From Hyphomicrobiales bacterium (GTDB taxonomy: Bacteria; Pseudomonadota; Alphaproteobacteria; Rhizobiales; Beijerinckiaceae), in NCBI GenBank assembly GCA_003963405.1, contig RXIY01000013.1, positions 1-64,000 on the forward strand: a DNA stretch of 64,000 nt, in the 5' to 3' direction. The first letter of the stretch is position 1, and every line of letters begins with the position of its first letter. The position numbers and the translations under genes were made by a program. The notes under the pieces were generated by a model. It had not been told where the DNA came from and ran no database searches. It was given only the letters and a program-made list of their open reading frames with translations. Below, piece by piece: positions 57,102 through 64,000 of the stretch.

Positions 57102-59150
57102 ATGATGCGGGAACATCTCGAGCGGCTGGTCATTGGGCTATTTGCTCTCATTGCCGCGGCGCTGCTTTGGGTTGTGCCCTATGCGATCGTGACCAGCTTT
57201 CGCTCCGGCTCCTCCAGGCCTGCGCAGAAATGGGAACTCCTCAAGCGGGTCACGACGGAAAATCCCCGCTTCGACCTCGAGCAGTTTCCGCCGATCTCCT
57301 TCGGCCACGGCTTTCCGCTCGCCTACAAGCATTTTTATGTCTATGCGCAGGACGAGCGCGTCTCCAAACTTGCGCTGGAAAACGGCGCCATCGCCGCTGG
57401 CATTGTCCTCGCGCTTTTCGTCGCCCTTGTCGTCTTTCTCTATGTGAACCGGAAATCGACGCTGCATGGAGACGCGCGCTTTGGGACGCTATCCGAGGCC
57501 CGCCGGGCAGGGCTGGCCGCGACGAGCGGAATCATCCTCGGCCGCCTCAACGGAGAAACGCTCGTCTCAAACGACCCCGGGCACGTGCTCATCGTCGGCC
57601 CGACCCGCACCGGCAAGGGCGTGAGCTTCGTGATCCCGAACGGCCTGGCTTGGCCCGGATCCATGGTGACGCTCGACATCAAGAGCGAAAATCTCAAATC
57701 TTTCGGCGCGGCGCGCGCGGCGAAGGGCAACGAAGTCTTCGTCTTTGCACCGGGCTCAGCCTCCTCCCACCGCTACAATCCGCTCGACTATGTGCGGCCC
57801 GGCCCTGAAATGGCGACGGACTGCGCCAACATTGCGAGCTTCCTCGTCTCGACCGGTTCGGTCGAGAACGAATGGACGCTGGCCGCGCGTAAGACCGTCG
57901 CGGCATTGCTCGGCTATGTGATGACGAGCATGCATTTCGAGAAGGCACGTCATATTCGCTCGGCGGTGCGCGTGATCTCGACCGGGCACGATATCGCGGA
58001 TGTGCTCAAAACCATCGCCTCGACGGAAAATGACGGTTCAGTCCCGTCCTGGGTCCTTGACGCCTTCAATCAATTCGTCTCGATCCCCGACCGCACGCGC
58101 GGCTCGGTCATGTTCAACGTCAACAACGCCTTCGCGCCTTGGGACTCGCCGCTGATCTGCGCCGTAACCGAAACATCCGACTTCGACATTCGCGATCTGC
58201 GTCGCAAGCGCATGTCAATCTTCATCGGCTCGCCGCTTGCCGATCTCGAAAGCTATCGTCCGCTCATTCGCATATTATTCCAGCAGATCCACGATGTGCT
58301 GATGCGCGATCTCCCTGGCGCCGACGAACCGCATCAAGTTCTTCTTCTCCTCGACGAATTCTACACGCTCGGCAAGATGTCGTCTCTCGCCTCGAAGATT
58401 GCCGTCAGCGCCGGCTATGGCTTCCGCATGGCGATCGTGCTGCAGAACATTTCGCAGCTCGACGAAATTTACGGCAAGGCGATGCGCGAGACGCTCGTCG
58501 CGGGCGCCGCCCTAAAGCTCTTCGTCGCGATCAACGATAATGAGACCGCCAAATATGTCTGCGATGCACTCGGGACCTATACCGCGACGCATACGACCAA
58601 GATGATGGGAGCGGGCCTCTCCCAATCTCGTGTCTCGCTCGGGCACATGGCCGCGCCGTTGCGGCGGCCGCAAGAATTGACGCGCATGCCGAAGGACAAG
58701 TCGATCCTACTCGTTGCCAGCGCGCGGCCGTTCGAGATTGGGAAGCTCTACTTCTTTCGTGAACGGCAGATGCGGCGGTTGATTGAGCAAACCGCGGTTC
58801 CGTTGATCGATTCGCCGGGTTTGCTGCCCTGGACCGAGCCCTCAGCGTGGCTGGATGCTCATTTGAAGTCGGGGCTGGTCTCGAAGGCGGCGCAAGCTGA
58901 GTCCGCTGCAACCCCCGTCTCGCATACGAACGAGAAATCCGCCGCCGAAGCGCCGCCAGGAGACTCTAACCAAGAAGGCGCGCGAAAGCAGCGAGCGGAC
59001 GTTGATATGGAGGTTTCCGACGTCATCGCCAGGATAAACGCCGAGGCGCGGCAGGCAATTTCCTCGCACGCTGGCGACGATATTGGATCTGCTCTGAAGA
59101 GTCTGACGGCGATCACAGAGAAAATCCGAAAAGATTGGAGCGCCGCTTAG
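57102..59150 (+). CDS. virD4: VirD4/TraG-type coupling protein
   Basis: 682-aa coupling ATPase that links the relaxosome to the T4SS channel. Two N-terminal membrane segments (LVIGLFALIAAALLWVVPYA; IAAGIVLALFVALVVFLYVN), Walker A IVGPTRTGKGVSFVIPN (near 166), Walker B LLLLDEFYTLGKMSSLASKI (near 414), and a charged C-terminal tail from about 590 that likely contacts cargo. No relaxase gene is visible in the window. A weak stem (ACCC/GGGT, 59159-59170, followed by TTTT) may end the operon. Confidence 0.94.
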   Translation: MMREHLERLVIGLFALIAAALLWVVPYAIVTSFRSGSSRPAQKWELLKRVTTENPRFDLEQFPPISFGHGFPLAYKHFYVYAQDERVSKLALENGAIAAGIVLALFVALVVFLYVNRKSTLHGDARFGTLSEARRAGLAATSGIILGRLNGETLVSNDPGHVLIVGPTRTGKGVSFVIPNGLAWPGSMVTLDIKSENLKSFGAARAAKGNEVFVFAPGSASSHRYNPLDYVRPGPEMATDCANIASFLVSTGSVENEWTLAARKTVAALLGYVMTSMHFEKARHIRSAVRVISTGHDIADVLKTIASTENDGSVPSWVLDAFNQFVSIPDRTRGSVMFNVNNAFAPWDSPLICAVTETSDFDIRDLRRKRMSIFIGSPLADLESYRPLIRILFQQIHDVLMRDLPGADEPHQVLLLLDEFYTLGKMSSLASKIAVSAGYGFRMAIVLQNISQLDEIYGKAMRETLVAGAALKLFVAINDNETAKYVCDALGTYTATHTTKMMGAGLSQSRVSLGHMAAPLRRPQELTRMPKDKSILLVASARPFEIGKLYFFRERQMRRLIEQTAVPLIDSPGLLPWTEPSAWLDAHLKSGLVSKAAQAESAATPVSHTNEKSAAEAPPGDSNQEGARKQRADVDMEVSDVIARINAEARQAISSHAGDDIGSALKSLTAITEKIRKDWSAA

Positions 59151-59370: not shown

Positions 59371-60120
59371 TTATGGTCTAGCCGGCGGCGCTGACGTCGC
59401 CCGGGGGGCTGGAGCGGATCGCGAAGGGACGATGTCCTTGAGCCAATTCACCGTTAGCGCGATCACAAGTGCAAGCGCGACTGCACCGATGACGCGGTAG
59501 TAGGTCTGCTCCTTCTCAACGGCATGGACGCGGTCTCCGAGTGCCTTGTCAACGTCCTTGATCTTCTTCGAAAGGCTGGCGAAAGACTGCAGCTCACCGG
59601 CAACGGACGTGACCAGCTCGGGATCGATACCCTCGTGAATGGTGCCGTCCTTCTTAAAGGCGGTCTCGCAGTCGAGGCTTGAGTACCAGATCAGGAAGAT
59701 TGGTTGCCCGCGCTTGAGGTGGATCGGCACGGGGCCTGCATTGAAGACGGCGAAAGTTAGCTGGCCGCGATAGCCCGGATCTACGTGAAATCCCGACACA
59801 TTGACGAGGCCTCGGAACTTGATCTTAGCGCGAATAGAGATGAAAGCCAGAGCATCGGCTGGAACTGAGACGATCTCCTCGGTAAGCAGGAAGGCGAACT
59901 GGCCGGGCGGAACGGTGAATGCCTCGCCGTCGCTAAGTTTACGGACGGTGACTGTGGTGGGATCGGCCGTCTGATCATTGGGCGAGACATAGACTTCGGG
60001 GCCGATGGATAACGTGTAGGCAGCACAGTCCACGCGTTCGGGCGCGAACGGGTCGATCAGCGTTTTCAGCCGCTCGCTGAGCGTTTCCCCGCTCCAGAAC
60101 ATGGCCGGTGGCTTGGTCAT
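59371..60120 (-). CDS. Membrane-anchored dCTP-deaminase/dUTPase-fold protein
   Basis: 249-aa protein. Residues 1-150 follow the dCTP deaminase (Dcd) fold: VDCAAYTLSIGPEVYV, GQFAFLLTEEIVSVPADALA, IRAKIKFRGLVNVSGFHVDP and GYRGQLTFAVFNAGPVPIHL. Relative to active Dcd, the Ser-Ser of the RSS motif is not conserved (RAK here), and the catalytic Glu in the strand after DPG-x-x-G is replaced (TFAVFN rather than TLELSN). Catalysis is therefore doubtful and nucleotide binding more likely. A coiled coil (about 175-205) leads to a C-terminal membrane segment (VIGAVALALVIALTVNWL) and a Pro/Ala-rich tail. It is divergent from the AcpS-like gene by 101 bp. Confidence 0.78.
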   Translation of the reverse strand: MTKPPAMFWSGETLSERLKTLIDPFAPERVDCAAYTLSIGPEVYVSPNDQTADPTTVTVRKLSDGEAFTVPPGQFAFLLTEEIVSVPADALAFISIRAKIKFRGLVNVSGFHVDPGYRGQLTFAVFNAGPVPIHLKRGQPIFLIWYSSLDCETAFKKDGTIHEGIDPELVTSVAGELQSFASLSKKIKDVDKALGDRVHAVEKEQTYYRVIGAVALALVIALTVNWLKDIVPSRSAPAPRATSAPPARP

Positions 60121-60221
60121 TACTTTGCTCCCCCTGGTCTCTATTATTCAGCCGTCATTCGCCGCGCTCCTTGGTTTTGGACGCGCCTCGATCTGTTGGG
60201 CTCAAGGGAAAGAAGGCTTTC

Positions 60222-60605
60222 GTGAACTTCATCGGACACGGCATCGACCTTGTGGAGGTCGCCGAGATGCGGCGTTGGATCGACGATCCGCGCAACCCGC
60301 TCGTTCCGCGTTGCTTTGGTCAGGCTGAGCTTGACGAGATCGGCAATGGGACCGATCGGGTCGAGCGCCTGGCGGGGCGGTTTGCCGCCAAGGAGGCGGT
60401 GCTCAAGGCGCTTGGGACGGGCTTCGGCGCTGGGATTGCGTTCACGGATGTCGTGATTCACCGCGCACCGGGCGCAGCGCCGGAGGTCCAACTCGCCGGC
60501 GGCGCGCTGAAGACCGCAGCGGCGTTGGGGATAACCGCCTGGCGTCTCAGCATTAGCCATGCAGGCGGTTTGGCGATGGCGAGCGTTATCGCACTGGGGC
60601 CGTAG
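60222..60605 (+). CDS. AcpS-type holo-ACP synthase / 4'-phosphopantetheinyl transferase
   Basis: 127-aa protein, the usual length of AcpS. It transfers phosphopantetheine from coenzyme A to an acceptor, normally a serine on acyl carrier protein. Motifs: GIDLVEVAEMRRWIDD with the Mg-binding Asp, CFGQAELDEI, and the core LAGRFAAKEAVLKALGTGFG, then AWRLSISHAGGLAMASV. I chose the GTG at 60222 after AAGAAGG; an upstream start at 60108 gives an implausible N-terminus. It is the only plus-strand gene here, convergent with the MazG-like gene by 2 bp and divergent from the Dcd-fold gene. No carrier-protein gene is visible nearby, so its acceptor is unknown. Confidence 0.82.
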   Translation: MNFIGHGIDLVEVAEMRRWIDDPRNPLVPRCFGQAELDEIGNGTDRVERLAGRFAAKEAVLKALGTGFGAGIAFTDVVIHRAPGAAPEVQLAGGALKTAAALGITAWRLSISHAGGLAMASVIALGP

Positions 60606-60607
60606 GC

Positions 60608-61513
60608 TCACGGGCGCGGCTCCTGACCATGCGAGGGGCCGAGGAAGGTGAGGCGCCGCGCGTCAAGATCGACGGCGATGCGGCCACCACGCGCGGCGAA
60701 CACAGCGCGCCACACCTCGAACCCTTGCAGGATCGCCTGCTCCCACTCACCGGTGGTGCATTGGCGCACTTCCAGATGGGACGTCATGTCCTTGATCGTG
60801 CGCAAGAGCTGGAAATCGAGGGCGGCAACACCGTCGAGGAAGCGATGGCGACGCGCATAATCGAAGGCGAGCGCCGCTACGCCCTCTTCGATGACCGCGG
60901 CGCGGCCGCCGTCCTCCACCTCGTCGAGTAATGGCCGACTTTTGCGCTTTTTCCGGAGCAAGGCGCGCGCGATGGGCGACCAGCCCAGCACCGCGGCGTA
61001 AGCGAAGTGGAAAACATCGTGAAAGCGATATCCATCCGGATCGTAGGCATTGTCAGTGAGTTCTGCGCCGAAGGGCTTGCCGTCGATTAGAACACGTACC
61101 CGCTGGCGCGCTTCGCCCTCGACATCGATGAGCTCGACCTCAAACCGCCTCGGCAGGCGCTCGCCCTCGGGTAGCTCAGCGTCGAAGGTGAGCGGCTCGT
61201 TGCGTTCGCTCGCCCAGCGCTGCTTGACCTTGGCCAAGTTGGCGGTGGCAATGTCAGAAAGTGAGAGTTCGAACTTGCTGGCGACATTGGCCATGTACCA
61301 GAGTAGGTCGCCCAATTCCTCAGACACGCGCTCTTTGAACAGGCGATGCGCTTCGCCGTCGCGCAAATGCTTCTTGTATTCGCTAAGTAGCTGACCGGTC
61401 TCGCCAGCTAGACCTAGCATCGGCACGATCAACGATGTGGCATCGTCGGCGCCATCGCGAGCGGGCACACGATCGGTGCGCAATGCCTCCTTCTGATAGC
61501 TATTGAAATCCAC
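60608..61513 (-). CDS. MazG-like nucleotide pyrophosphohydrolase with C-terminal extension
   Basis: 301-aa protein. The first 105 residues are an all-alpha NTP pyrophosphatase of the MazG/RS21-C6 type: FNSYQKEALRTDR, LGLAGETGQLLSEYKKHLRD and VSEELGDLLWYMANVASKFE with the metal-binding E-x-x-E and E-x-x-D pairs. The remaining 195 residues are a separate domain (AYDPDGYRFHDVFHFAYAAV, LGWSPIARALLRKK), common in this MazG subgroup. It likely hydrolyses a non-canonical or hypermodified dNTP. The GTG at 61513 has an ideal AAGGAGG 5 nt upstream. It follows the kinase-like gene by 34 bp. Confidence 0.83.
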   Translation of the reverse strand: MDFNSYQKEALRTDRVPARDGADDATSLIVPMLGLAGETGQLLSEYKKHLRDGEAHRLFKERVSEELGDLLWYMANVASKFELSLSDIATANLAKVKQRWASERNEPLTFDAELPEGERLPRRFEVELIDVEGEARQRVRVLIDGKPFGAELTDNAYDPDGYRFHDVFHFAYAAVLGWSPIARALLRKKRKSRPLLDEVEDGGRAAVIEEGVAALAFDYARRHRFLDGVAALDFQLLRTIKDMTSHLEVRQCTTGEWEQAILQGFEVWRAVFAARGGRIAVDLDARRLTFLGPSHGQEPRP

Positions 61514-61547
61514 GCTCGCCTCCTTCGGCCTCACCCACTGAAGCGCA

Positions 61548-62684
61548 CTACGGCGCGTCTATGCTGATCTTGTCGTTGAGGTTCCATTTGGGGGGATAGA
61601 AGAGTTCGATCGGCTCGGGGGTCGGCTCGAACTTCTGCTTGATCCGGACACGGCCGGTCATTCCTGCGATCTGCGGGTGCGCCACGCGCGCATATTTATC
61701 GACTTCGCAGAACAGGTTCTGGCAGTCGATCAGCTGGAGCCGCCGGCCCCAGAGCGATTGGAAATCGAGACCCAGCCGCTCGAACTCCTGCTCCTGCAAG
61801 TCGGCCATCAACCGGATGAGCTCGGGCTCGTTCAGGCCGCCCGGATCGAGGAAGCATTTACGCAGGCCGTCGCGTGCCCCGGGGCCGGGCACGACAAAGT
61901 CCATTTCGCTGAAATCGGTGAGTTCGCTGTAATTGATGTCGGTGATGAACTGATAAGCGAGGAAGTCGCCGATCGTCGGATAGGTGCGCAGCTTCTCGAA
62001 ACCCTCCTGCATCGTTCGGGTTTGGGCCAGCCGCTCGGCAAGCCGGTCCGCCATCATCCGTTCGAGCAGCAACAGATGATTCTGGTGCTTGGCCGGCCGT
62101 CCGAAGGAGCGGCTGCCCGGCGGCATTATGTATGCAGCCGAGTAGATGCGATGGCCGGCCTGCATCGCGCGCGAGAGCACCGCGTCATAGGCAGCGAAGC
62201 GATAGTCCTCGAAGGTGATCGGGCCAAGCGCGCGTTCGAGGAGCTCCCAGGTCTCGATCTTGTTGAACAGCTTGAACAGCAGGATGCGAAAGAACACTTC
62301 GCGCGGCGACTTGGGCAGGTCTTCGTGATAGATGACATGCCGGATGAGATATTGGCTGACCCGGTCGGACGCCCGGTAGGCGTTAGTGAATTTGAAGATC
62401 GCCAGCACCGGATTGCTGGTCCAGGGGCGCTTCTCACCGCGCGCGCGGCGAAAGAACACCGCCTGCCGTTCGGCGGCAAAGCGCCAATAGCTCTCATAGA
62501 CCTCCGACACCTTGGCCGGCGCGAGGTGTCGCAACACGATCGGCACGGGCGCCGGCGAAGCCGCCGCGGGCCGAACGGCGACAGGCAGCTCCATCGGCAG
62601 TAATGCGCTGGCTGCGCTCGGACGGGGTTTCGAGGGGCGGCCGCGCGGACGTTTCGACGGGATTCTGGGAGACCTCGAACTCAA
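61548..62684 (-). CDS. 5-hmdU DNA kinase / thymine-pyrophosphorylase-like protein with AT-hook
   Basis: 378-aa protein resembling the family annotated as 5-hmdU DNA kinase helical domain or alpha-glutamyl/putrescinyl thymine pyrophosphorylase, known from phage thymidine hypermodification. Recognisable stretches are KRPWTSNPVLAIFKFTNAYR, ASDRVSQYLIRHVIY, LFKLFNKIETWELLERALGP, IYSAAYIMPPG and ITDINYSELTDFSEMDFVVP. The basic N-terminus (about 4-22) contains an AT-hook-like KRPRGRPSKPRP, which suggests action on DNA. It starts at TTG 62684, overlapping the upstream stop by 4 bp. Family membership is moderately sure; the reaction in this protein is inferred. Confidence 0.72.
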   Translation of the reverse strand: MSSRSPRIPSKRPRGRPSKPRPSAASALLPMELPVAVRPAAASPAPVPIVLRHLAPAKVSEVYESYWRFAAERQAVFFRRARGEKRPWTSNPVLAIFKFTNAYRASDRVSQYLIRHVIYHEDLPKSPREVFFRILLFKLFNKIETWELLERALGPITFEDYRFAAYDAVLSRAMQAGHRIYSAAYIMPPGSRSFGRPAKHQNHLLLLERMMADRLAERLAQTRTMQEGFEKLRTYPTIGDFLAYQFITDINYSELTDFSEMDFVVPGPGARDGLRKCFLDPGGLNEPELIRLMADLQEQEFERLGLDFQSLWGRRLQLIDCQNLFCEVDKYARVAHPQIAGMTGRVRIKQKFEPTPEPIELFYPPKWNLNDKISIDAP

Positions 62685-63532
62685 CGCGCTGCTCCGATGG
62701 CCATAGCGACTGTGGCGCGCCGCGCTGACGGCGCAGCGGGCGGCGTCACGAGCGCCTGAGCGGCGGCGATCAGCGGCGCGAAATCAGCGTCGTTTTTGGT
62801 GATCCGCTCAAGCTTGGCGATCCCGACCATAACGTTGAGGCGCGCAAGCGGCATACCCATCTCATGGGCCATGAACGCGCCAAGCTGGGCCAGGCCGAGA
62901 TAGTTGCCATAGGCCTTGTCGAAGATCTGCTGGGTGGCATAGAAGGCGTTGGTGACAAGGCCGGCCGCGGTCGGCTCGAAGCTCACCTGCTGTAGGCAGG
63001 GAAAGCCGAGCTGCGCGCTGGCCACATGGTCTCGGCCCGGATCGAAGGTGGTTGCCTGCAGCATCGAGCGGCGCACGCCTGTTCGCGAATTGAATTGAGA
63101 CAAGATCCACTCCAGTTGATTGCCATCGCAGGGGCCACGACCGTACATGGCTAGGCGCTCGAAATAGAGGCCGCGACCATTGGCCTTACGGTTCATTGCC
63201 TGCCAACGCGGAAATGTGGCGCAATAGAGGGTAAAAAGGCGTTTCCGGTCGCCGCGCGACATTTCCCAGAGGCGCTGCGGGAAAATGGTGAACGCGACGT
63301 CGTCTATCACGAGTCTCCCTTTGCGCGTGAGTAGCCGATCGAGGGCTTGGCGCACCGCCGGGTCTTCGAGAGGTGCGCCGTGGGTGAAGCCGCTCAGGCT
63401 CAGGATCAATGGCGCGACCTCGGTGCCAGCGCCGTCAAGAACCTGCAACAGCAGCCGCGCCCAAGCGCGCGAGAGATTGGTGTCGTCGATCACCAGGGGC
63501 GGCGCCGCCGCGAGCATCTTCGCCTTACTCAT
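62681..63532 (-). CDS. Thymidylate-synthase-family protein (pyrimidine methylase/hydroxymethylase-like)
   Basis: 283-aa protein with the thymidylate synthase core: MYGRGPCDGNQLEWIL, RTGVRRSMLQATTFDP, the nucleophile region AQLGFPCLQQVSFEP (Cys179), and NAFYATQQIFDKAYGNYLGL, corresponding to the TS Asn/Asp region. The N-terminal 90 residues are divergent. TS relatives in phages make 5-hydroxymethyl-dUMP or dCMP, the entry step to base hypermodification, so either normal TS or hydroxymethylase activity is possible. The ATG at 63532 overlaps the upstream stop by 8 bp; the gene is co-translated with its neighbours. Confidence 0.8.
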   Translation of the reverse strand: MSKAKMLAAAPPLVIDDTNLSRAWARLLLQVLDGAGTEVAPLILSLSGFTHGAPLEDPAVRQALDRLLTRKGRLVIDDVAFTIFPQRLWEMSRGDRKRLFTLYCATFPRWQAMNRKANGRGLYFERLAMYGRGPCDGNQLEWILSQFNSRTGVRRSMLQATTFDPGRDHVASAQLGFPCLQQVSFEPTAAGLVTNAFYATQQIFDKAYGNYLGLAQLGAFMAHEMGMPLARLNVMVGIAKLERITKNDADFAPLIAAAQALVTPPAAPSARRATVAMAIGAAR

Positions 63533-64000
63533 CCGGGTCCTCCTCCAGATGGCGGAATTGCGCGAGACCGACATAGCCGTATGGCTCGCTTTTCTGGATC
63601 GGGGCGATGCGCACGAAGACGGCCCAGTCGGGAGCGATCGCCTGGAATATTCCCGGCTTCACCGCCCGGAACAGGCGTCCGGCTGCAAAGTCGCGTTCGA
63701 ACGCGAGCCCACCGCCCGTCACCTCGGTGCCGGGCGGCAGAAGGAGCAGCGTTTTGACCTCTGCATCCAAGGTGGGCGCGGTGCGAAGGCGGTCGACGAC
63801 GATCAGCGGTTCGGGCGTCAGCGCGCCCAGGATGTCCATGCGCAAGGCCTTGGGGGTGACGCGCTGCAACGCGGCGGCGCGACCGCGCGACAACATGTTC
63901 ACGCCTGCTGAAAGGTGGGTCAGAAGCGTCGCGTAACCAACGCCGAACTCGCAGGCGATGGTGAAGATCTGCGCCGACGTCGCCGTTTCGGGGGTCCAGC
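63525..64000 (-). CDS. ImmA/IrrE-family-like protein, 5' end outside window
   Basis: The last 158 codons of a gene that continues past the right edge. The visible part contains SAQIFTIACEFGVGYATLLT, HLSAGVNMLSRGRAAALQRV and TPKALRMDILG, which I recognise as the segment after the HExxH domain in ImmA/IrrE-type metallopeptidases. A C-terminal beta-rich domain follows (LLLLPPGTEVTGGG, GRLFRAVKPGIFQAI, YVGLAQFRHLEEDPDE). The HExxH motif itself would lie outside the window, so the call is tentative. It heads the minus-strand modification-like operon visible here and may regulate it by cleaving a repressor. Confidence 0.6.
   Translation of the reverse strand, partial: WTPETATSAQIFTIACEFGVGYATLLTHLSAGVNMLSRGRAAALQRVTPKALRMDILGALTPEPLIVVDRLRTAPTLDAEVKTLLLLPPGTEVTGGGLAFERDFAAGRLFRAVKPGIFQAIAPDWAVFVRIAPIQKSEPYGYVGLAQFRHLEEDPDE

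Follow-up and report, generated by a model that had tools for sequence, protein, structure and literature searches.

The window, that is, the whole stretch of 64,000 nucleotides analysed here, ends on its right-hand side inside a gene cluster that runs on along contig C118 (72368 bases) into genes for an XRE-type regulator and then an acyl carrier protein (ACP). The stretch is plasmid-like. The features are given below, from the last gene in line to the first.

59371-60120, minus strand: Dcd-fold protein with a C-terminal hydrophobic (transmembrane) segment; PF22769, 3e-17; TIGR02274, 2.3e-21, below its cut-off.
60222-60605, plus strand: AcpS-type phosphopantetheinyl transferase; open reading frame 60108-60605 with a likely GTG start at 60222; PF01648, 5.5e-14; TIGR00516, 70.3 bits against a cut-off of 59.8.
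60608-61534, minus strand: MazG pyrophosphohydrolase with MazG_C; PF18722, 7.9e-78; PF03819, 1e-4.
61548-62684, minus strand: HMUDK_hel protein (HMUDK) with an AT-hook-like N-terminus and no P-loop; PF18723, 5.3e-112.
62681-63574, minus strand, likely start 63532 (MSK, which relatives share): thymidylate-synthase-superfamily (TS-like) protein; TIGR03283, 5.6e-9.
63525-64427, minus strand, the window ending at 64000 inside the gene: ImmA/IrrE (peptidase M78) metallopeptidase, 300 aa; PF06114, 4.2e-14.
64427-64792 in window numbering, outside the window, minus strand: XRE/Cro-type HTH repressor, 121 aa; PF01381, 2.8e-14.
64789-65094 in window numbering, outside the window (L005:4789-5094), minus strand: ACP, 101 aa, first gene in line.

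The HMUDK and TS-like genes overlap by 4 bases, the TS-like (start 63532) and ImmA genes by 8 bases, and the convergent AcpS and MazG genes are 2 bases apart. An earlier note had described six genes at this edge; all six lie where it placed them, and Pfam and TIGR profiles bear out the families it named. It was right that the genes belong together, and set their number too low: with XRE and ACP past the edge there are at least eight. The peptidase and the phosphopantetheinyl transferase, which it could not place in any known pathway, have partners just past the edge, namely the XRE repressor and the ACP. The ACP would be a natural substrate of the AcpS-type transferase.

Recurrence was followed in 80 bacterial loci picked solely for encoding an HMUDK-type relative (the best 80 of at least 238 relatives). 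The trio XRE-ImmA/IrrE-TS-like occurs in this order in 61 of them. An upstream ACP is present in 60 of these 61 (58 by HMM, two by eye; the 61st locus ends at a contig end) and in 0 of the 19 loci without the trio (Fisher 1.7e-17, the groups being defined by the trio), at least five of which (L058, L071, L074, L088, L099) are short or start inside the cluster, so that absences there mean little. The order ACP-XRE-ImmA-TS-HMUDK on one strand is kept in 56 of the 80, and the pairwise distances of these five proteins correlate (Mantel r 0.80-0.91, p 0.0005 each; 58 loci, 2000 permutations). Gene order kept across loci chosen for HMUDK, together with co-varying distances, rules out chance clustering.

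The core of the cluster is the quartet ACP-XRE-ImmA-TS, since loci found from the peptidase keep it even without HMUDK; the HMUDK, MazG, AcpS and membrane-anchored Dcd-fold proteins are common partners. The peptidase-anchored search gave three loci, L158-L160, that read ACP-XRE-ImmA-C1 peptidase-TS with no HMUDK seen. L159 ends shortly past the TS-like frame, and an HMUDK gene might lie further on; the genomes of L158 and L160 (G186 and G261) are not among the seven genomes with HMUDK. AcpS lies near 37/61 core and 3/19 non-core loci (p 0.0012), and is missing near 24/61 core loci. Neither MazG (45/61 and 13/19) nor the Dcd-fold gene (22/61 and 7/19) is commoner near the core. The exact eight genes of the window are therefore not a fixed unit: the expectation that the genes travel together holds for the core, while AcpS, MazG, Dcd and even HMUDK vary. 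Three loci have TS without the full trio: L059 reads TS-HMUDK-MazG with the ACP trio absent, L072 has a partial ImmA frame lacking HExxH and neither XRE nor ACP, and L090 has a TS fragment only. L117 (G097), which starts at a contig end, reads XRE-ImmA-C1-MazG-HMUDK with a TS fragment and no ACP found, and in L125 the TS-like gene is split over two frames.

The ACP escapes ordinary detection: the window's own protein has no Pfam match, and only 6 of 57 single sequences match Pfam PP-binding. As a family profile it matches solved ACPs (from E 3.2e-6). Ser43 in the D-S phosphopantetheine site is invariant in 57/57 sequences of alignment A6, and the serine is found in 66/67 in an HMM alignment, where L075 is aligned differently. 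For a Rhodoplanes orthologue (AF2 model, pLDDT 94.6) the Foldseek rows are carrier proteins, the best at E 0.028 and none at E<=0.001. The family thus has the serine of a type II acyl carrier protein and similarity to one in fold and profile. The AcpS sequence contains GIDLVEV and FAAKEA, which we take to be AcpS motifs by role. The host has AcpS-type genes of its own (contigs C1 and C26), a full TS (contig C42) and seven PP-binding matches on other contigs, so that housekeeping copies are unlikely here. What the sequences show is the anatomy of the cluster, its recurrence, an ACP whose phosphopantetheine-site serine is invariant, and an AcpS-type gene alongside, though the host has its own. 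No ACP-charging enzyme was recognised in the cluster. Sequences used in the alignments were 57/60 available (A6), 44/68 (A7), the window protein and 41/82 (A8), the window protein and 20/30 (A9), and 29/65 (A10).

The TS-like protein is a remote member of its superfamily. It has no Pfam TS match, and its TIGR03283 score of 35.8 bits is far below the cut-off of 174.55; all 44 of 44 relatives match this model at E<=0.01. With sites mapped by hhalign (E 9e-5, probability 59%) and by solved-structure alignment, the catalytic Cys and the pyrimidine-contact Asn are each found in 44/44. In the same weak alignments an Arg, which we take to be the phosphate-contact position of thymidylate synthase, is kept in 3/44, and the Asp, presumably the folate-contact position, is absent from all the residues listed, which cover 43 of the 44 sequences. 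Of the features of a thymidylate synthase that methylates dUMP, the family on these weak alignments thus has Cys and Asn and lacks Arg and Asp. A search of solved structures gave nothing at E<=0.01; the best match, a weak one, is the CMP 5-hydroxymethylase MilA (5b6d; E 0.011), whose RxxD stretch has for the most part lost both Arg and Asp in the present family.

Among the partners, the MazG profile matches solved MazG-type enzymes (E 8.8e-5). The membrane anchor claimed for the Dcd-fold protein is borne out by a hydrophobic segment toward the C-terminus in 30/30 relatives (19-residue mean hydropathy 1.74-3.22 in 29, and 1.36 in L083). Its family has the Dcd fold (PF22769) and matches solved dCTP deaminases from E 4.1e-26. 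The position aligned with Glu in 4xjc, which we take to be the catalytic Glu of dCTP deaminase, is Ala in 10, Ser in 10 and Arg in 1 of 21 sequences, and an active deaminase is not supported. The best solved relative, 9ln0, is named a dCTP deaminase and likewise has no Glu there. The HMUDK protein does carry the AT-hook-like motif that had been noted (KRPRGRPSK), as do 11 of its 80 relatives. A P-loop pattern occurs in the frames of 11/80 relatives and a thymidylate-kinase-like domain somewhere in 24/80 loci, in some of them fused to HMUDK_hel; the window protein has no P-loop, and a kinase is not supported there. Its AF2 model (pLDDT 89) gives best Foldseek rows that are mostly HhH-GPD DNA glycosylases, at E 0.38 or worse and not significant.

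The arrangement of an XRE gene adjoining an M78 peptidase with HExxH (in 61/62 ImmA relatives) is that of ImmR-ImmA/IrrE pairs. XRE-metallopeptidase switches are among the systems described in PMC10233336 and PMC7907104. The ImmR-ImmA switch of ICEs and DdrO-IrrE share with the present pair an XRE-type regulator and an M78 metallopeptidase; unlike them, the pair here has an ACP before it and a TS-like enzyme after it, and cleavage of the repressor is predicted.

The distribution of the cluster is patchy. The TS-like family is found in 4 of 398 genomes of the phylum, its own included, and is absent from the single listed genome of the same genus and from the 11 listed for the same family. An ACP-anchored search of 190 genomes gave strong matches in the own genome and G185 and weak ones in G010 and G140. 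The window HMUDK shares 82% identity with one from an Acidobacteriales MAG, and relatives are spread over many phyla, judging by record titles. Copies occur on plasmids typed conjugative (of 22 HMUDK plasmid records 14 were examined, with the quartet in seven: L013, L014, L016, L017, L018, L122 and L125) and also on long, apparently chromosomal contigs, such as the 8.26 Mb record of L036. The cassette looks like a mobile, horizontally spread one.

Several observations link it to defence. Of the 19 HMUDK loci that lack the trio, 10 have a ThsB-type TIR and Nmad2 in its place; the pair occurs in 13 HMUDK loci, three of which have the trio as well (p 1.1e-5). HMUDK loci carry either the quartet or ThsB-TIR and Nmad2, with both in 3 of the 13 pair loci. 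The TIR/Nmad2 loci have HMUDK in common with the quartet loci, and in part MazG (9/13) and Dcd-TM (5/13); in contrast to them, 10/13 have no XRE-ImmA-TS trio. Nucleotide-centric conflict systems are reportedly a subject of Burroughs 2015. As cited by PMC13092281, such systems mix nucleotide-handling domains with immune genes, and the present cluster is similar in this. In that paper (2026, DefensePredictor), the domains newly validated in E. coli defence include a thymidylate synthase and a 5-hydroxymethyluracil kinase, and the predicted ones include MazG, MazG-C and dUTPase; its main text has no occurrence of 'acyl carrier' or 'ImmA'. Its E. coli system or systems with TS, dNMP kinase, 5-hmdU kinase and NMAD, likened to the cluster by domain names alone, share the TS superfamily and an HMUDK-type domain with it; relatives of this locus also have thymidylate-kinase-like and Nmad2 domains. 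The domains named there suggest the TIR-Nmad2 kind of locus. E. coli genomes searched with one distant gammaproteobacterial HMUDK DNA query gave no match, and PADLOC gave none for the six window proteins. In the flanks, PADLOC was run on 89 of 115 frames from core loci, and GajB (2 members), AbiEii (2) and mad3 (3) are among the first 25 of 208 families; housekeeping genes are seen as well. The scan covered frames shorter than 850 aa from core loci other than L028 and L036, up to a residue limit; it was an uncontrolled one, and no defence-island enrichment is claimed.

We favour, with as much doubt as confidence, a horizontally spread, inducible and most probably anti-phage system that would make or handle a modified pyrimidine nucleotide with its own carrier protein. 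The inducible anti-phage reading is preferred because of the TIR and Nmad2 in trio-less HMUDK loci and the domains named in PMC13092281. XRE would keep the operon repressed until cleaved by ImmA/IrrE, which infection would trigger. AcpS would load phosphopantetheine onto the ACP; the cysteine of the TS-like enzyme would bind a pyrimidine nucleotide, whose position 5 would be altered with the help of the ACP. HMUDK_hel may process the product, as a nucleotide or in DNA, and MazG may remove or salvage unwanted triphosphates. Lacking the deaminase Glu, the membrane-anchored Dcd-fold protein may sense the nucleotide or act at the membrane. Phage DNA synthesis might be poisoned or marked as a result, or a nucleotide signal might arise. 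A specific form of this chemistry is strongly to be doubted: the TS-like enzyme would take a group held by the ACP (a carrier thioester or phosphopantetheine thiol replacing folate) at the uracil C5 nucleophile made by its cysteine, and the product would be a 5-acyl or 5-alkyl pyrimidine nucleotide whose formation depends on the ACP and which has a role in immunity. It is proposed because ACP and TS are strictly linked and Cys and Asn are kept, while the folate-contact Asp and phosphate Arg are lost in nearly all members.

Other explanations would fit parts of the evidence. Phage HMUDK relatives are thought to act on 5-substituted uracil in DNA, and plasmid or host DNA might be hypermodified in this way, with the ACP bringing the group and the mark shielding the plasmid. 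HMUDK_hel, the TS superfamily and MazG, which all recur here, have roles in phage thymidine hypermodification (HMUDK/aGPT-PPlase), pathways to which PMC6449724 and, reportedly, Iyer 2013 are devoted. The AT-hook-like N-terminus and the weak glycosylase-like fold rows agree with such a role, as do HMUDK relatives in 476 of 50,697 phage records (all <60% identical, the best-ranked 34.2%), one of them annotated alpha-glutamyl/putrescinyl thymine pyrophosphorylase. Hypermodification is nevertheless unlikely: no restriction partner recurs within the unit in the loci examined, the quartet exists without HMUDK, the AT-hook is confined to a minority, and one TS-like query matched 0 of the same phage records at E<=1e-5. 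In the phage 5-hmdU DNA kinase pathway, moreover, a P-loop kinase is joined to HMUDK_hel; the window protein has the domain and not the kinase, and the cluster is bacterial and plasmid-borne, with ACP, AcpS and XRE-ImmA. A plain phage-type pathway is disfavoured because that one TS-like query is unmatched in the phage records, the P-loop is missing and the best-ranked phage HMUDK relative is so distant; on the same query, a phage modification operon is rejected for the TS/ACP part. It is very unlikely that the genes form a small cluster that synthesises a nucleoside antibiotic or metabolite, with a pyrimidine 5-hydroxymethylase and its acyl carrier, rather than an immune system. The CMP 5-hydroxymethylase belongs to a nucleoside-antibiotic pathway, and a dedicated ACP with AcpS is typical of such clusters. 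Export, ligase or resistance genes do not recur within the unit in the loci examined, and the XRE-ImmA switch, the spread over many phyla and the alternation with TIR-Nmad2 also speak against it.

A signalling system is distinctly unlikely; in it, a nucleotide messenger from the enzymes would be sensed by the membrane-anchored Dcd-fold protein, or by TIR in other loci, with cell death or arrest as the outcome. Dcd-fold relatives do retain the hydrophobic segment and have lost the deaminase Glu, and ThsB-type TIR lies near HMUDK elsewhere; but the Dcd-fold gene is near a minority of core loci, and a search for another effector uniform across all quartet loci found none. Plasmid stabilisation of the toxin-antitoxin kind, with XRE and the zinc peptidase as the pair and the enzymes as toxic output, is extremely improbable. 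The plasmid-like location would suit it, and an XRE/zinc-metallopeptidase pair is described as toxin-antitoxin in PMC10538038, but some copies are apparently chromosomal and several additional enzymes are present.

Immune systems that modify nucleotides form an expanding class; in the literature searched, mostly titles and opening parts of abstracts, no description of a carrier protein in such a system was found. With few genes and clear key residues (ACP Ser, TS Cys, ImmA HExxH), the proposal is directly testable. ACP-dependent TS-like chemistry, if true, would add a new class of reaction to the TS fold and amount to a nucleotide defence built on a carrier protein. A cassette that crosses phyla and couples carrier chemistry of the fatty-acid/polyketide type with a TS-fold enzyme would be a lead to unknown nucleotides, to new anti-phage means and to new enzymes for nucleotide synthesis.

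The six genes at the right edge of the window (59371–64000), interpreted in the earlier note as a possible plasmid-borne DNA hypermodification or nucleotide-sensing defence system, are present and their families were named correctly, as confirmed in the sequence and by profile matches. The ImmA/IrrE gene is cut by the window end; contig C118 (72368 bases), which holds the window, runs on and adds two genes (window numbering, beyond the window):

64427–64792, minus strand: XRE repressor
64789–65094, minus strand: acyl carrier protein (ACP), 101 aa, motif KFDSK

On the minus strand the genes thus run ACP, XRE, ImmA/IrrE, thymidylate-synthase-superfamily protein (TS-like), HMUDK_hel protein (HMUDK; PF18723) and MazG. 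Past MazG come a convergent phosphopantetheinyl transferase gene (AcpS) and the gene for a Dcd-fold protein whose C-terminus carries a hydrophobic segment. Beside the cluster, at 65245–66290, a DUF433 gene and then a PIN-domain gene form a VapBC-like pair.

The cluster is flanked on one side by a VirD4-type coupling-protein-like gene (57102–59150, by eye) and on the other by a relaxase gene (66347–68689, PF03432), past which lie ParA-like and SSB-like frames (by eye). Elsewhere in the genome, contigs C92, C116 and C122 match the coupling-protein region at 77–85% identity. These matches stop at about 58852, 59155 and 59178, short of the cluster, as would be expected for cargo; several related conjugative elements may coexist in this genome. 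The same operon occurs on plasmids typed conjugative. The cluster carries an AcpS-type gene although host copies exist elsewhere in the genome. At about 29362–32983 of contig C26, an AcpS-family domain (643-aa frame) lies near a PP-binding domain (2455-aa frame), perhaps a host PKS/NRPS-type cluster.

Three plasmid relatives of the 101-aa protein, namely one from Allocoleopsis and two from Streptomyces, are annotated ‘acyl carrier protein’. In an alignment of 57 of the 60 available relatives, the only fully invariant column is the serine of the DS motif. A profile of these 57 matches solved ACPs from E 3.2e-6, and the serines line up. The family is divergent: as single sequences, 6 of the 57 match PP-binding in Pfam, and the protein encoded here has no Pfam match. 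For the Rhodoplanes orthologue, AlphaFold2 gives a model with a mean pLDDT of 94.6. By title, all 50 Foldseek rows shown for it are carrier proteins, assemblies that contain a carrier protein, or respiratory complex I, one of whose subunits is an ACP; the first comes from an AcpS–ACP complex. The best E is 0.028, and none of the 50 reaches 0.001.

Recurrence was examined by scanning genome contigs with an HMUDK alignment. The best 80 of at least 238 relatives were taken as loci, a sample that leans to close relatives; the HMMs for the other parts started from the window and plasmid copies, and members found in the loci were then added. They call TS-like in 66 loci, ImmA/IrrE in 62, XRE in 62, ACP in 58, MazG in 58, AcpS in 40 and Dcd in 29. 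XRE, ImmA/IrrE and TS-like stand in this order on one strand (the trio) in 61 of 80; 57 have an HMM-called ACP no more than 1 kb upstream, and 56 have HMUDK downstream on the same strand. L026 also has a called ACP, but an XRE frame starting far upstream broke the position rule; in L061 and L082 the ACP was identified by eye, and L063 is cut by a contig end. ACP is thus found in 60 of 61 loci with the trio versus 0 of 19 without, in groups defined by the trio and with several of the 19 cut short. AcpS is also commoner with the trio (37/61 versus 3/19, p 0.0012). MazG (45/61 versus 13/19) and Dcd (22/61 versus 7/19) show no such enrichment, and therefore follow HMUDK, not the quartet of ACP and trio. 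Protein distances co-vary across 58 loci (Mantel r 0.80–0.91).

Inspection by eye added ACP-like frames with a DS motif, missed by the HMM, ahead of the repressor in L061, L082, L102, L114, L116, L125, L158, L159 and L160. The same loci form a subgroup with a papain-like C1 peptidase gene between ImmA/IrrE and TS-like. In the Rhizobium ruizarguesonis plasmid locus L125, AcpS–ACP–XRE–ImmA–C1 comes after a gene annotated as encoding a pYEATS-domain protein, possibly a sensor or effector, and the TS-like gene is split over two frames.

Other anchors were searched as well. The TS-like family occurs in 4 of 398 phylum genomes, this one included, and is absent from the one same-genus genome and 11 same-family genomes listed. 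The peptidase matches 22 of 289 class genomes at E ≤ 1e-10. Three of the five loci extracted (L158–L160) read ACP–XRE–ImmA–papain-like peptidase–TS, with no HMUDK within the stretch; the distant L161 and L162 carry XRE–ImmA as a single frame and lack all the other parts. HMUDK matches 7 of 289 class genomes. After extension, four have the XRE–ImmA front end (this genome, G185, G001 and G097, the last at a contig end and without a visible ACP), G095 and G091 have Nmad2-type neighbours, accompanied by TIR in G095 only, and G124 has neither. The ACP profile matches 4 of 190 genomes at E ≤ 1e-6, strongly in this genome and G185. Among eight viral-contig loci, three have the trio, with the ACP HMM-called in two and seen by eye in one.

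HMUDK also has other partners. A thymidylate-kinase-like domain (PF02223) occurs in 24 of 80 loci, HMUDK-fused in 12, and a second TS (PF00303) in 16, all with a kinase match (weak in L034); each profile was matched on two representatives. MazG is rarer alongside the kinase (8/24 versus 50/56 without, p 9e-7). Four of the 80 loci, and also viral L100, have a radical-SAM gene close to HMUDK; L077 matches more weakly. A ThsB-type TIR (PF08937) pairs with Nmad2 (PF18753) in 13 of 80, only 3 of which have the trio (p 1.1e-5). HMUDK thus has two main settings, one with the ACP quartet and one with TIR–Nmad2 as its partner module. Contig C118 carries no second TS, kinase, Nmad2, radical SAM or TIR.

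A ThsB-type TIR gene and an Nmad2 gene lie near HMUDK in L010, L015, L049, L069, L078, L079, L091, L093, L095–L098, L118, L121 and L126, frequently alongside MazG and sometimes Dcd-TM; this looks like a second immune module using the same nucleotide enzymes. In the Gloeothece plasmid locus L015, the HMUDK start overlaps a gene annotated as CBASS cGAMP-activated phospholipase, and MazG, TIR and an Nmad2-type gene come next. On the L019 (Erythrobacter) and L124 (Sphingosinicella) plasmids, the HMUDK-type gene has a DnaQ/exonuclease gene on one side and a plasmid-borne dnaE (DNA polymerase III alpha) on the other, with a SAM methyltransferase gene close by, possibly a replication set for modified DNA. 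L127 (Acinetobacter plasmid) has HMUDK as two annotated genes and Dcd-like frames upstream.

Active-site residues were mapped in the TS-like family by hhalign to the second TS (E 9e-5, probability 59%), in agreement with an alignment to CMP 5-hydroxymethylase (E 0.011). The Cys and the N177-like Asn are each present in 44 of 44 sequences, and the Cys pattern in 65 of 66 locus rows. The phosphate Arg position holds Ala (35), Pro (5) or Arg (3), and the folate-contact Asp position Gln (17), Tyr (13), Leu (6), Phe (3), His (3) or Lys (1), with one not listed. The Dcd-fold protein has Ala, Ser or Arg at the deaminase Glu position in 21 of 21 (position from the 4xjc alignment); its best solved relative, 9ln0, likewise lacks Glu there. 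The window's HMUDK protein has no P-loop, and its model is mostly helical with a weak, non-significant resemblance to HhH-GPD glycosylases. ImmA/IrrE keeps HExxH in 61 of 62. Two simple AcpS patterns each fit 29 of 40 rows, and the MazG patterns EExxD and GExxE fit 48 and 15 of 58; as these fit only part of the rows, some copies may be inactive.

The proposed mechanism would comprise repressor cleavage, loading of the ACP and C5 chemistry, with putative roles for HMUDK, MazG and the Dcd-fold protein. XRE–metallopeptidase switches are known from an ICE and from Deinococcus (PMC10233336, PMC7907104). From outside this analysis, an anti-phage purpose is suggested mainly by PMC13092281, which lists thymidylate synthase and 5-hydroxymethyluracil kinase as newly validated defence domains, and MazG, MazG-C and dUTPase as predicted ones. 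A figure legend there names TS, dNMP kinase, 5-hmdU kinase and NMAD, domains closer to the TIR–Nmad2 loci than to the quartet; ‘acyl carrier’ does not occur in its main text. No description of an ACP in such a nucleotide-modifying system was found among the open-licence papers that the literature searches listed, judged mostly by title and abstract start, and an earlier mention is possible. The more novel reading, in which the ACP takes the place of folate, is improbable. The cluster is read as a putative variant of nucleotide-modifying defence systems, distinguished by its ACP.
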